Both the position numbers and the translations under genes were made by a program. This document shows positions 12,613 through 20,186 of a stretch of 20,186 nucleotides of DNA, piece by piece. Every line of letters starts with the position of its first letter. Positions within the stretch are counted from its first letter, which is position 1. The notes under the pieces are model-generated. The model saw nothing but the letters and a program-made list of their open reading frames with translations. It did not search any database and had not been told where the DNA came from. Source of the stretch: a virus; the IMG/VR virus record IMGVR_UViG_3300019763_000020, positions 1 through 20,186 of that record. One strand, given 5' to 3'.

Positions 12613-12973
12613 AAAAGAAACAGGAGTATTCAAAATGAATAAATCATTAATTGCTTGTTCAATTTTATTTGCATTATCTACAGCAAAAATAGATGAAGAT
12701 TTAAATGAAATAAAACTTGCAGTAGTAGGAAAATGGAAAGGTCATCCAGCTGGTCCTTTTGAACTAACACATGAAGATCTAGTTCAAATCAAAACTAACT
12801 TTGACAATGGAGAGGTTGATATTGTTGTTGATTTTGAGCATTCATCTTTATGGAATGAAAAAGCACCAGCAACTGGCTGGATTAAAGAGCTATTTTTCAA
12901 AGAGAAAGATTTATGGGCAAAAGTAAAGTGGATAGGTGACTCAAAAGAACTTATCAATTCTGAACACTATAAA

Positions 12974-12976
12974 TAG
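12974..12976 (+). other. In-frame amber codon in the protease gene
   Basis: TAG replaces a conserved Tyr position (HYK-stop-ISPVF) with the same frame open on both sides. Several neighbouring genes end in TAG (gpD, gpI, E', small terminase), so TAG is not generally reassigned here. Confidence 0.85.
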
Positions 12977-13129
12977 ATCAGTCCTGTATTTGATTCTAAA
13001 ACAATAGATCAAGTAAGTGGCGATGATATGGGCTGGAGCTTACATAGTGTTGCTTTAACAAATAGACCATTCCTAGAAGAATTAGGAGAAATTATCGCAA
13101 ACAATAGAAGTCAAAAAGGAGATACAACT

Positions 13130-13441
13130 ATGACTGAAAAAGAACAAAAAAGACTTGATGATCTTGAAAAAGAAAATCAAAAGTTAAAAGATGATGCAGC
13201 TACAACTGAAGAAAAAAGAGTTGAAGAGGAAGTAGATACTGCCATTGCAAACTCTAAAGCAACACCTGAACAAAAAGAGTCACTTCTAGCATTTGGAAAA
13301 AGTGATCCTGAAGGATTAACTAAATTACTTGAAGCTGCATCAACAACTATTGTTGCACCAGAAAATGACTTGTATGTAAATAGCAAACAAAACCCAAATG
13401 CACCAAAATATGATGTATTAAAATTAGCAGGAGTGAACTAA
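13130..13441 (+). CDS. Nested capsid scaffold protein, in frame within the protease gene
   Basis: Inside the protease reading frame (codon 166) an ATG at 13130 is preceded by AAGGAG at 13116-13121, spacing eight bases, one of the better Shine-Dalgarno sites in the window. The 103-residue product starts MTEKEQKRLDDLEKENQKLK, a strong heptad coiled coil up to about residue 45, followed by an acidic helical part and a C-terminal Pro/Asn-rich segment. In Mu the scaffold Z is likewise made from an internal start in gene I. Because the start lies beyond the amber codon, scaffold synthesis does not depend on readthrough. The stop overlaps the decoration gene ATG by one base (TAATG). Function is inferred from position and from the coiled coil. 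Confidence 0.72.
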   Translation: MTEKEQKRLDDLEKENQKLKDDAATTEEKRVEEEVDTAIANSKATPEQKESLLAFGKSDPEGLTKLLEAASTTIVAPENDLYVNSKQNPNAPKYDVLKLAGVN

Positions 13442-15849: not shown

Positions 15850-17569
15850 TAAAGATGAATTACTAGAACATTTAAAAGACACAGAACAACAAGCTTTAGA
15901 TAGTGGAGCTAATAAGAAAAAAGCTAGAAAGATAGCAAAAAAAGCTTTTAAATCTTGGTTAGATGATTTTACTTCCTCTTTAAAAGAACAAATTAAAATA
16001 AGTGATACATTAGATCCTAATGAAAAGCATTTAAGAGTACTTACTCAATCAAACGATTTTCATTATTTTAGAAATACTTACTTTCCTCATTATTATACTT
16101 TAGAGGGAAAATCAGGACTACAAGATGATTTAGAAGAGACCTACTACAAAATTGTAGATAAAGATAAACATTCTGGGTTAAAATTTGCAAAAGCAGCACC
16201 AAGAGGTAATGGTAAATCCACAGATGCATCTATAGTATTTCCTTTATGGTGTATCGTAAATGGTTTTAAAAATTTTATCACTATATTCTCTGATGCAATA
16301 GAACTAACAGAAACACTCATTGAATCAATTAAAGTAGAACTAGAAGAAAATGACAGACTAAGAGCTGATTTTCCTGAAGCAGTAGGTATGAGTAAAGTTT
16401 GGAAGATTGGGGAGATAGTTACAAACAACAATATCAAAATAAAAGGTTTTGGTAGTGGTAAAAGAGTAAGGGGTATCAAGCATGGAGTTTATAGACCTGA
16501 CTTAGCCATCATAGATGATCTAGAAAATGATACAAATGTAAGAAGTAGAAAACAAAGAGATAAACTTGAAGAGTGGCTTGATGAAGCTATTGATAACTTA
16601 GGAAGAGTTGATGGTTCTATGGATATTTTATACATAGGTACCATTTTACATAGAGACTCAGTTCTAGCTAGAAAGCTCAAACTCAAGTTTTGGCATCCAG
16701 CAATATTTAGATCACTTATTAGCTATCCAACTAATATGCATATGTGGGAAGAGTACACAAATATTTATAAATATGAAGGTGTCAATGAAGCTAGAAACTA
16801 TTACTTAGATAACAAATCTTTGATGGATGAAGGAGCAGTTCTTTTATGGGATGCAGTTAGTCTAGAACTTCTTATGCAAAAAAGAGCAGCTAATACTAAA
16901 GCATTTCAAAAAGAGCAGCAGAACAATCCAAATAGCGAGAATCAAAAGTTTGACTCTAGTAAGTTTCAAAAGATATCACCAACTCAAATGCCAAAGCTTG
17001 ATTATATCTATATGTTTGTAGATGCAAAAGGTGACTCAGACCAAGGCGACTTTTGTGGGATACTTGCAGGTGGAGTAAGTCTAGCTACCCAAAAACTCTA
17101 TATATTCCTCTCAAAACAAGAGCGTATCAAAGGTAAGCCTGTAGTTACAAAAGTAGTAAATATGCTAAATGAAATGAAAGTATATATGCTAGGTGGTGAT
17201 AAGAATGGTGGTTTTTATATGCTTAGAGATTGGATTAAAGATGAATGTTTCAAGCAAGGTATTCCAGCTCCCCTTATGAGGTTTACACACTGGACTGAGA
17301 ATAAAGAGGACAGAATGGGTGAATTAGAGTTTCCTATAGATGATGGAGATATTATATTTGTAGGAGATCATCCTGAGCTATTCAATCAAATGGATGACTT
17401 CCCTGAATCTGAAAACGATGATTTACATGATCCTCTATCTGCAGTTTACAGAATGAGTAAATTAAGAAGATTAAAAAAAGACGCAAATGGAAGTGGAAAA
17501 CGCTCAAATACGAGAGCTACTAGACATAAACGACCAAGTAGAAATTCAAGAACAAGAGGAAGACGATAA
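15836..17569 (+). CDS. Large terminase subunit (packaging ATPase-nuclease), Mu gp28 type
   Basis: The motor that cuts and pumps DNA into the head. The 577-residue frame has a Walker A motif APRGNGKST (about 121-129), a Walker B LAIIDDLE (about 223-230), a coupling motif region YIGTILHRDS, and a C-terminal nuclease domain with FVDAKGDSD (from about 394) and a late acidic HDPLSAVYRM. A reading from GTG at 15821 is possible, but AGGA at 15824-15827 fits the ATG at 15836 with eight bases, so I start there. It overlaps the small terminase by 14 bases. The last 30 residues are strongly basic (Arg/Lys/Ser/Thr) and likely disordered, unlike the core. Genes follow to the portal with a TAATG junction. 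Confidence 0.93.
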   Translation: MSLFSKDELLEHLKDTEQQALDSGANKKKARKIAKKAFKSWLDDFTSSLKEQIKISDTLDPNEKHLRVLTQSNDFHYFRNTYFPHYYTLEGKSGLQDDLEETYYKIVDKDKHSGLKFAKAAPRGNGKSTDASIVFPLWCIVNGFKNFITIFSDAIELTETLIESIKVELEENDRLRADFPEAVGMSKVWKIGEIVTNNNIKIKGFGSGKRVRGIKHGVYRPDLAIIDDLENDTNVRSRKQRDKLEEWLDEAIDNLGRVDGSMDILYIGTILHRDSVLARKLKLKFWHPAIFRSLISYPTNMHMWEEYTNIYKYEGVNEARNYYLDNKSLMDEGAVLLWDAVSLELLMQKRAANTKAFQKEQQNNPNSENQKFDSSKFQKISPTQMPKLDYIYMFVDAKGDSDQGDFCGILAGGVSLATQKLYIFLSKQERIKGKPVVTKVVNMLNEMKVYMLGGDKNGGFYMLRDWIKDECFKQGIPAPLMRFTHWTENKEDRMGELEFPIDDGDIIFVGDHPELFNQMDDFPESENDDLHDPLSAVYRMSKLRRLKKDANGSGKRSNTRATRHKRPSRNSRTRGRR

Positions 17570-18948
17570 TGTGGTTTAGAAATAAGAATAAAAAAGAAAC
17601 AAAAAAAGAGCAAAACAAAAGAGAGAAAGTATCACTTACTTCAAGTAATAAAAACATATTAAAATCTATCTTTGATCTACCAGTTCAAGAATCATGGTTA
17701 AGTGAAGATACTATTGAAAAAATATTAAGAGATGGTACAGTTGAAAGCTCAATCGGAAGTAGAAAAGCAGCCACTCTAAAAAAAGAGATCATTATCACTT
17801 GTAAAGATGACAAGATGAGAAAAGAGCTAGAAAATATCTTTAACTATGACATATTAGATTGTATTCTAGACACACCATATTATGGTTTCAACACTTTTGA
17901 GATCAACTGGGAAAATAAGAATAATATTTTATATCCAACTTTAGAAGATAGAGACTATAAAGAGTTTATTTTAGATGGTAAAAAACTGTGCTACTTTCCA
18001 AATGGAATGATGCAAGAGATACCTCCTTATAAATCTGTTTATGTAACATACAGAGCAAAAGCTAAAAGACCCTATGGCAAACCTATTTTAAATACATTGT
18101 TTTGGTTAATAGAATTTAAAAATGCTTCATTAGAATTTTGGGTTGAGTTACTTGAAAAGTTTGGTACACCTTGGGTTATAGGTAAAACAGAAGGTAACAA
18201 AGATGATTTTGCAGATGAGATATTTAATATGCTTGGTGGAGATGGAGCTGTTATTGATAGCGAGGATTCTTTAGAGATAAAAACAGCAACAGACAAAGGA
18301 AACTACAAAGAGCTAATAGAATATATAGATGATCAAATAAGACAACTTATCTTAGGTGGAAATCTTACATCAAATGTAAAAGGTGGTTCACAAGCAGCTG
18401 CAACAGTTCATAATGATATTAGAGAAGATCTAGCAAAAGCAGATGAAAATATAGTAAATAAAGTTATCAAAGAGGTACTTCACTATTTTACAGAGCTAAA
18501 CGGAATCACAGAAGAGATAAAAGGGGAGTTCAAAGATAAAGATGATCCAAACAAAGCTTTAGCTGATAGAGACAAAGTTATATCAGAGATGGGATATACA
18601 CCAACACAAGAGTATATAGAGCAAACTTACAATATTAAAGTTGAAAAGATTGAAGATTCTCAAACAGTTATAGCAAATAGTAAACTTATTTCTTTGTCTA
18701 AAGATATGCCTGAGGATGAGCTAGAGTATCAAGCCAATCAACTTGATACAAAAAAACCACTCACATTTCAAAAGCAAATTTTAGAGATTATTGAAAATAG
18801 TAAATCGTTTGAGGATATGCAAGATAAACTTTTAACACTTTATCCAAATACAAATACAGATGATTTACAAGAAATACTCTTTAACAATATTGCAAATAGT
18901 GAGATACTAGGACGAGCTGAAATAGAGAACGAAAATGGCAACAGTTAA
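17569..18948 (+). CDS. Portal protein, DUF935 (Mu gp29) family
   Basis: The dodecameric portal through which DNA enters and leaves the head. The 459-residue frame has the basic N-terminus, then the DUF935 stretch VESSIGSRKAATLKKEIIIT, ILDTPYYGFNTFEINWE ('i..a...G.s..E..W'), and the C-terminal region with FGTPWVIGKTEG ('yG.P...g') and GGNLTSNVKGGSQAAATVHNDIREDL ('G.tlt........g....Aav...v...i'). Its length is somewhat below Mu gp29 (about 510). Start: ATG in TAATG, with GAGGAAG upstream. It ends inside the next gene, overlapping by 14 bases. Portal directly followed by MuF is typical of Mu and SPP1-type modules. Confidence 0.92.
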   Translation: MWFRNKNKKETKKEQNKREKVSLTSSNKNILKSIFDLPVQESWLSEDTIEKILRDGTVESSIGSRKAATLKKEIIITCKDDKMRKELENIFNYDILDCILDTPYYGFNTFEINWENKNNILYPTLEDRDYKEFILDGKKLCYFPNGMMQEIPPYKSVYVTYRAKAKRPYGKPILNTLFWLIEFKNASLEFWVELLEKFGTPWVIGKTEGNKDDFADEIFNMLGGDGAVIDSEDSLEIKTATDKGNYKELIEYIDDQIRQLILGGNLTSNVKGGSQAAATVHNDIREDLAKADENIVNKVIKEVLHYFTELNGITEEIKGEFKDKDDPNKALADRDKVISEMGYTPTQEYIEQTYNIKVEKIEDSQTVIANSKLISLSKDMPEDELEYQANQLDTKKPLTFQKQILEIIENSKSFEDMQDKLLTLYPNTNTDDLQEILFNNIANSEILGRAEIENENGNS

Positions 18949-20095
18949 TTTCAACTTTAATCTAGCTCCAAAAGACGCAATTAAATATCTACAAAATAAA
19001 GGTTTTAAACTCTCTTTTGATTATGATGAGCTACAAAAAGAAGCACATCTTAGAGCCTTTACAGTAGCAAAAGTTACAAGACTAGACTTACTCAATGATA
19101 TTTTTACAAATATAGATACAGCATTAAAAGATGGTAGATCATTTCAAGACTTCAAAAAGGAGTTAGTTCCAACACTTCAAAAAAAAGGATGGTGGGGAGA
19201 GCAGGATATAGTAAACCCTAAAACAGGAGAAGTAAAAACTATAAACATAGGTTCAAGAAGATTACGAAATATTTATAAAACCAATATGAGAGTAGCATAT
19301 CAAGTAGGAAGATACAAACAAAAAAAAGCACTTCCACTTAGTGTTTATTGGAGATATAAATCAGCATTACTAGAAAATACAAGGGAGGAACATGCCAAAA
19401 TGCATGGTATTCTACTCCATAAAGATGACCCTTGGTGGAATACAAACTATCCTCCAAATGGTTGGGGATGTCATTGTAAAGTTACAGCTCACAGTCTTAA
19501 AGATATAGAAAAACGAGGCTGGAGTATTGAAGATAAAAAGTTACCTAATATCGCTTCAAAAGATTGGGAGTACAATGTAGGAGATGGAAATACAATTTCC
19601 ACTCTAAGTAAAATTAATTTAGATAAGAGTTTAAATAACCTAACAAAAGTAAATGATGTAAAACAAACAAAATATAAAGAGTTAAGTGATGAGAAATTAA
19701 AGAATCTATTTTATACAAACATGGGTGTAAAAGCTGGTGATACTTTTATAGATAAGATTGGTGATCCTATGATTATAGATGATGAACTTTTTAAAATTAA
19801 TAATTGGACTAAAATCAAGAAAAAAGACAGACATTTATATTTAGACAAAATAGCAAAAACAATAAAAGAACCTCATGAGATCTATTTAGAATATGATGCT
19901 CCACACAATAGACTTTTAAAAAAGATGTTTAGATACTTAGATCATAATGGTAAAAAAAGAGCTGTATTAGTAATCTTTGAATATTTAAAAGATAAAACTC
20001 AAGGTGTAAGTGCTTATTTTGTAGATACTCCAAATGCTGTTGAGAAAAAAAGAATAGAAAAACTTATATATCAAGAGAGTACTCATAAAGAGTAA
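18935..20095 (+). CDS. MuF-type head morphogenesis protein with C-terminal PBECR-like nuclease domain
   Basis: The first part, about residues 1-215, is the MuF head protein (Mu gp30, SPP1 gp7), which associates with the portal and is carried in the head. Its marks are NTREEHAKMHGILLHKDD (about 148-165) and PPNGWGCHCKV (173-183; 'PP.G..C.C.v'). The second part, about 255-382 (KDRHLYLDKIAKTIKEPHEI, YLEYDAP, a basic Lys/Arg-rich loop, then KKRAVLVIFEY and YFVDTPNAVEKKR), resembles the PBECR class of phage nuclease domains of the barnase/EndoU/colicin/RelE type. These are known as C-terminal fusions to MuF. If so, the virion may deliver a nuclease with its DNA. Domain assignment is by eye; catalytic residues are not proven. 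The ATG overlaps the portal gene. Confidence 0.85.
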   Translation: MATVNFNFNLAPKDAIKYLQNKGFKLSFDYDELQKEAHLRAFTVAKVTRLDLLNDIFTNIDTALKDGRSFQDFKKELVPTLQKKGWWGEQDIVNPKTGEVKTINIGSRRLRNIYKTNMRVAYQVGRYKQKKALPLSVYWRYKSALLENTREEHAKMHGILLHKDDPWWNTNYPPNGWGCHCKVTAHSLKDIEKRGWSIEDKKLPNIASKDWEYNVGDGNTISTLSKINLDKSLNNLTKVNDVKQTKYKELSDEKLKNLFYTNMGVKAGDTFIDKIGDPMIIDDELFKINNWTKIKKKDRHLYLDKIAKTIKEPHEIYLEYDAPHNRLLKKMFRYLDHNGKKRAVLVIFEYLKDKTQGVSAYFVDTPNAVEKKRIEKLIYQESTHKE

Positions 20096-20186
20096 GGGGA
20101 TTTCGTTTCAATGCCTAACTAAATAGGTAAAGTGTAAGGACTCAGGACGGTGCCCCATTCGTCTAACCGTTACACATCTCTCTTGT
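20096..20186 (+). ncRNA. Candidate structured RNA, runs off the right window edge
   Basis: No gene is visible in the last 91 bases. G+C here is roughly 45 per cent, well above the surrounding genes. CCTA (20114-20117) pairs with TAGG (20124-20127) over ACTAAA. GTGTA (20132-20136) pairs with TACAC (20171-20175), and inside it ACGGT (20147-20151) with ACCGT (20166-20170). The first stem-loop resembles the one at 14778-14790. Neither the end of the element nor a following gene can be seen, so the class is unknown. Confidence 0.35.

Follow-up and report, generated by a model that had tools for sequence, protein, structure and literature searches.

A structured minus-strand RNA as candidate antidote to a MuF-borne PBECR2 nuclease in a phage packaging module

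Background

Fusions of the phage minor head protein MuF to nuclease domains of the PBECR group have been described by Iyer et al. (2017, PMC5512222), who judge active orthologs of the Mu F protein to be likely RNases and Mu's own copy to be inactive. MuF toxins normally have a small immunity open reading frame (ORF) directly downstream (Jamet 2017, PMC5576092). The question addressed here is what protects a lysogen from the RNase that its own phage carries in the capsid. We analysed, in a Mu-like phage, a fusion of MuF to PBECR2 (phage-Barnase-EndoU-ColicinE5/D-RelE-like nuclease 2, Pfam PF18810) and the bases that follow it, at the end of a 20,186-base fragment from IMG/VR (IMGVR_UViG_3300019763_000020, positions 1 to 20,186; the whole stretch is called the window below), together with the corresponding loci of related phages. 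Because MuF-PBECR fusions were already known (PMC5512222), the protein part of the system belongs to a described kind. What the comparison brings in is an RNA whose occurrence in related phages is almost confined to loci with a seemingly active toxin, a pattern suggestive of RNA, and not protein, as the antidote.

The MuF-PBECR2 protein

The MuF gene (18935..20095, plus strand) is an intact ORF encoding a minor head protein of 386 amino acids (aa), which matches phrog_220, minor head protein and DNA pilot, with an E value of 8e-76. Its residues 55-183 (19097..19483, plus strand) form the Phage_Mu_F head domain (PF04233, E 2.7e-19). An original prediction, made from the letters of the window, had proposed a MuF head protein fused to a PBECR-type domain, and both parts are borne out by Pfam matches that clear the cut-offs by a wide margin. 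The search of the C-terminal part identified PBECR2 specifically, at residues 268-380 (19736..20074, plus strand; E 1.5e-15), with a score of 57.9 bits against a gathering cut-off of 27.1, which places the domain in the family.

The predicted active-site residues are intact. Arg299-His300 in the N-terminal helix (DRHLYLDK; 19829..19834, plus strand) occupies the predicted catalytic position, as judged from the alignment, our motif tables and the scheme of Iyer et al. (PMC5512222); according to the motif tables, relatives that lack the RNA have lost the residue at the Arg299 position. Thr355 (DKTQG; 19997..19999, plus strand) is the predicted C-terminal Ser/Thr of the BECR active site, on the evidence of the alignment and the same article. 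Arg299-His300 and Thr355 are conserved in the alignment, and the placement of D298-R299-H300 on a helix and of T355 in a later strand region agrees with that scheme.

An AlphaFold2 model of residues 207-386 (pLDDT 90.5, pTM 0.84) has a long helix followed by strands. In the comparison with known nuclease folds that the original prediction had proposed, BrnT (3u97, Z 3.2) and contact-dependent inhibition (CDI) toxins (6cp9, 7m5f and 6vek, Z 2.5-2.9) stand among the lower-scoring structural matches, and no match exceeded Z 3.8. A sequence search of the PDB with the C-terminal domain found no relative.

A structured RNA at the 3' end of the MuF gene

The bases after MuF had been thought to resemble a structured RNA, and this held up: the topology found at 20072..20185 beats dinucleotide shuffles. 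The structured RNA, our proposed antidote, is placed on the minus strand, and its 5' end lies at about 20185 or just past the window. All of its elements are given on that strand. In the outer stem P1 the 5' arm CAAGAGAG (20178..20185) pairs with the 3' arm CUCUCUUG (20072..20079), which is formed by the last codons of MuF. The inner stem P2 joins GUGUAA (20170..20175) to UUACAC (20132..20137), and the hairpin P3 joins GACG (20160..20163) to CGUC (20146..20149). A pseudoknot would link GGGG in the P3 loop (20153..20156) to CCCC between P2 and P1 (20096..20099); these two strands were picked out by eye on the model of the family, and the best solution of our script for the window used another partner strand.

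The RNAs of relatives have the same architecture of outer P1, inner P2, hairpin P3 and a pseudoknot of the P3 loop with a strand between P2 and P1, a topology common to about 25 of them. In 23 of 24 loci, the window included (60/60), none of 60 dinucleotide shuffles reached its score. The P3 loop fits the partner strand of its own locus better than those of other loci, none of 20,000 permutations reaching the observed mean when the nested stems were picked ignoring the pseudoknot. Because MAFFT alignments that included P1 misplaced the helices, we searched for helices locus by locus and tested by permutation. A covariance model, R1, was too narrow, matching close relatives only and missing the window. 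Rfam contained no family at gathering score for the window RNA or its close relatives, and readings of the window RNA as a twister, a hammerhead, a hepatitis delta virus (HDV) ribozyme or a riboswitch were rejected for want of an Rfam match.

The window ends 91 nt past the MuF stop, in the outer stem of the RNA, so the RNA promoter and the next gene fall outside it, and both were read in relatives. Where relatives share the nuclease, MuF is followed by a homologue of Mu gpG, in most of them ~80-120 nt downstream. The original prediction had expected an immunity gene or RNA nearby. Except in class 3 (the nuclease classes are described below), the gap between MuF and gpG in the relatives holds no fitting immunity ORF, and it is filled instead by the structured RNA; an immunity RNA in the following bases thus has a candidate, which appears to be encoded on the opposite strand. 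Overall, the comparison supports the earlier reading of a nuclease on a packaged head protein, and that of an immunity RNA.

RNA presence and the nuclease active site

The coupling of RNA to active site was assessed in 138 related long MuF proteins belonging to three nuclease classes. The motif was taken as the intact N-terminal-helix residue, and the RNA was scored as present where the gap to gpG exceeded 40 nt, with gap lengths read from the gpG alignment, as early in-frame starts make gaps look short. The long gap is a proxy for the RNA; direct tests of structure covered about 25 loci, and the T-arm, a tRNA element discussed below, was looked for in every locus.

By this measure 98 of the 101 loci whose motif is intact have the RNA, as against 4 of the 37 whose motif is lost (both, 98; neither, 33; RNA without motif, 4; motif without RNA, 3), in a scoring that was not blind, in which the lost-motif set was compiled by hand from the motif table and the class-1 score merges two alternative His positions (LLH and KRH) picked after inspection. 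A tree built from the MuF head domain gave eight supported independent pairs that went in the same direction and none that went in the opposite one (p about 0.008). The RNA is absent from phages Mu, DMS3, MP22, JBD30 and D3112, whose F and G genes share an overlap of 1-4 nt.

RNA type and nuclease class

When the MuF C-termini were clustered by protein sequence alone, they fell into four classes: the PBECR2 class, a second class with weak similarity to PBECR3/MuF_C (class 1), and two more, referred to as the third and fourth. Alignments of whole nuclease classes offered no conserved stretch to search with. Pseudoknot RNAs accompany PBECR2, and tRNA-like RNAs without a normal anticodon loop accompany the PBECR3/MuF_C-like class. 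A canonical tRNA T-arm occurs in 26 of the 31 class-1 loci with RNA, in 0 of 107 others and in 2.2% of random windows. The acceptor stems of the class-1 RNAs are perfect or near-perfect over 5-9 bp, with 21 distinct arm pairs among the loci listed, and the loops of their middle hairpins are mostly of 3-5 nt, not 7. Named phages with RNAs at this site are Campylobacter phage CAM-P21 (tRNA-like), Rhodobacter phage RcWaterboi and Rhizobium phage RR1-B.

The class-1 RNAs look like tRNA mimics unable to decode. ARAGORN at default settings made no tRNA call for them, and the minus-strand RNA of one locus (L187) reached 27.1 bits with the Rfam tRNA model, below the cut-off of 29. An assignment of the minus-strand elements as ordinary tRNA genes was rejected, as ARAGORN found none at default; its low-threshold matches were spread over both strands and gave no support for tRNA genes.

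The strand of the RNA was assigned from the T-arm of the PBECR3/MuF_C-like class and from promoter boxes. Of 102 RNA loci, 50 have a minus-strand TATAAT box downstream of MuF and 4 a plus-strand one; the box occurs in 4.6% of random windows and in none of the 36 loci that lack the RNA. The minus-strand RNA in relatives starts directly after this box, and in Rhizobium phage RR1-B a sigma-70-like minus-strand site and a terminator-like hairpin flank it.

Other occupants of the slot and neighbouring genes

The slot between MuF and gpG does not always hold an RNA. In the fourth, non-BECR class of C-termini an ORF of 70-85 aa overlaps the MuF stop at all six loci, making the two a candidate pair of toxin and protein immunity; the slot thus seemingly holds whichever antidote the toxin needs. 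The loci of this class (L053, L054, L155, L174, L176 and L184) share the motif HDLFY...FANIFEIILSGN. At locus L166 a relic second PBECR2 tail (KRIEKLIYRKPKGTDK, followed by a stop) precedes a second structured RNA within a MuF-gpG gap of 335 nt, and L117 has two tandem tRNA-like RNAs; both arrangements look like displaced, duplicated or orphan immunity.

At loci L168 and L188, small ORFs whose paired CxxC motifs resemble zinc ribbons lie between the RNA and gpG. A short MuF of about 250 aa without the C-terminal domain is found in L012-L037 and other Gastranaerophilales-type loci, which also have, before gpG, an ORF of ~270 aa (INWVGGKRLLRK...PFGGG) that resembles an adenine DNA methylase; an ORF at 525-1325 of the window (minus strand) is similar to it.

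In the window, terminase and portal genes lie upstream of MuF, which places the MuF-toxin fusion in the packaging module. The portal gene (17569..18948, plus strand) encodes a Mu gp29-like protein, and the gene order is the same in relatives and in phage Mu. The protease/scaffold gene (12635-13441) looks split into ORFs 12635-12976 and 13028-13441, which could reflect a frameshift, a sequencing error or a real break.

Proposed mechanism and alternatives

The comparison supports the domains, the intact active site, the RNA structure, the enrichment of minus-strand promoter boxes and the coupling of the RNA to both motif and class. We infer delivery of the nuclease, its RNase activity and target, transcription of the RNA in the lysogen and inhibition by binding. 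We consider it probable that the protein is a virion-delivered RNase from which the lysogen is protected by a decoy RNA, in the manner of type III toxin-antitoxin systems. The MuF minor head protein with its C-terminal PBECR2 RNase probably enters the cell alongside the phage DNA. The opposite strand of the same locus would encode a small folded RNA, transcribed from its own promoter, that would bind the nuclease domain and block it as a decoy or pseudo-substrate. With the late operon silent in the lysogen and the RNA promoter on constitutively, the lysogen and the virion-making cell would be protected, and unrelated recipients would not. Each nuclease class would be paired with its own RNA type. 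More generally, we lean, with less assurance, towards a picture in which head-carried polymorphic toxins are neutralised by small substrate-mimicking RNAs, such as anticodon-less tRNA mimics, that are swapped as cassettes together with the nuclease.

Several observations weigh against a decoy RNA. An exact TATAAT box is present in only about half of the RNA loci, folding energy does not separate the two strands in the PBECR2 class, and the promoter region of the RNA is absent from the window itself. Foldseek/VIA-align comparison of the domain model with the PDB is weak, the top match being a Salmonella toxin-antitoxin complex (7vd7) with Z 3.8. The coupling has exceptions on both sides: four RNA-bearing class-1 proteins have Arg or Asn in place of the His, and three near-identical portal-MuF fusions with an Arg-to-His change have no RNA. 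An Arg-type PBECR family is reported by Iyer et al. 2017 (PMC5512222). The portal and MuF genes are apparently fused in loci L277, L278, L280 and L281, whose products of ~970-1007 aa end in PBECR2 and which have no RNA gap.

The weak fold-search matches would suit a C-terminal domain that is merely a structural or RNA-binding part of the head, with an unrelated transcript or terminator behind it, as would the predicted inactivity of Mu's own copy (PMC5512222). RNA presence nevertheless follows the catalytic residues in three classes and the T-arm is confined to one of them, and we regard this explanation as very improbable. An RNA encoded opposite the 3' end of MuF might also act in cis, in a type I-like way, by pairing with the 3' end of the MuF mRNA and limiting its expression without binding protein, and such an antisense regulator would likewise be dispensable once the nuclease is dead. 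The RNA overlaps MuF by no more than about 10-25 nt, however, whereas the conserved fold spans 70-110 nt, and antisense pairing requires neither an RNA type that tracks the nuclease class nor one that imitates tRNA; regulation of this kind seems quite unlikely to us.

The coupling alone cannot separate an antidote from a cofactor of the nuclease. A cofactor, a cargo (for instance one carried into the virion) or a substrate would also predict both the loss of the RNA with the loss of activity and the matching of RNA and nuclease types. Against these, the slot holds a small ORF in the non-BECR class and nothing where a short MuF adjoins gpG, as expected of immunity, and the relic tail and second RNA of L166 resemble orphan immunity. 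With a protein ORF seen at this site in one class and copies that resemble orphans at other loci, we favour an antidote and consider a cofactor, cargo or substrate unlikely, if less so than antisense regulation.

Should the RNA prove to be an antidote, it would follow that immunity to polymorphic toxins can take the form of RNA, and that each such RNA hints at the substrate of its nuclease, which would be tRNA for the class with tRNA-like partners. The putative inhibitor RNAs are compact and inactive natural controls are at hand (Mu, DMS3 and JBD30), so that the proposal is directly testable in laboratory phages.

Comparison with known systems

The window protein has the same domain, the same fusion to MuF and the same predicted active site as the fusions of Iyer et al. 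2017 (PMC5512222), and the accessible text of that article describes no RNA partner or immunity element for them. With the MuF polymorphic toxins of Jamet 2017 it shares the combination of MuF and a C-terminal toxin in the packaging module, and the expectation of an immunity element downstream. The immunity candidates of those toxins are small proteins, whereas here no fitting ORF was found downstream of MuF, and the slot, mostly about 81-120 nt in relatives, is filled by a minus-strand RNA.

The class-1 RNAs share an acceptor stem, a T-arm and often a D-arm with tRNA. They differ from it in having no standard 7-nt anticodon loop, in scoring below the Rfam gathering threshold and in being negative with ARAGORN at default.

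Type III toxin-antitoxin systems (ToxIN, CptIN and TenpIN) likewise pair an endoribonuclease toxin with an RNA antitoxin that is structured and often contains a pseudoknot, and the coupling of a structured RNA to an active RNase is found in the MuF system as well, with activity judged from motifs only. In type III systems the toxins are ToxN-like and not PBECR, and the RNA is a same-strand repeat array located before the toxin (PMC8860590, PMC5086642). No such same-strand tandem-repeat RNA upstream of the toxin was found here, tandem copies occurring only in L117 and L166. The MuF system instead has a single, partly tRNA-like RNA that lies after the toxin gene and on the other strand, and its toxin is fused to a capsid protein and belongs to a different family; for these reasons we have not filed it as type III. 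A search of open-licence full texts turned up no mention of RNA partners of MuF-PBECR toxins, an absence that is not proof of novelty. Relative to the published fusions, the comparison suggests as a new feature an immunity-element candidate in the form of a structured minus-strand RNA.
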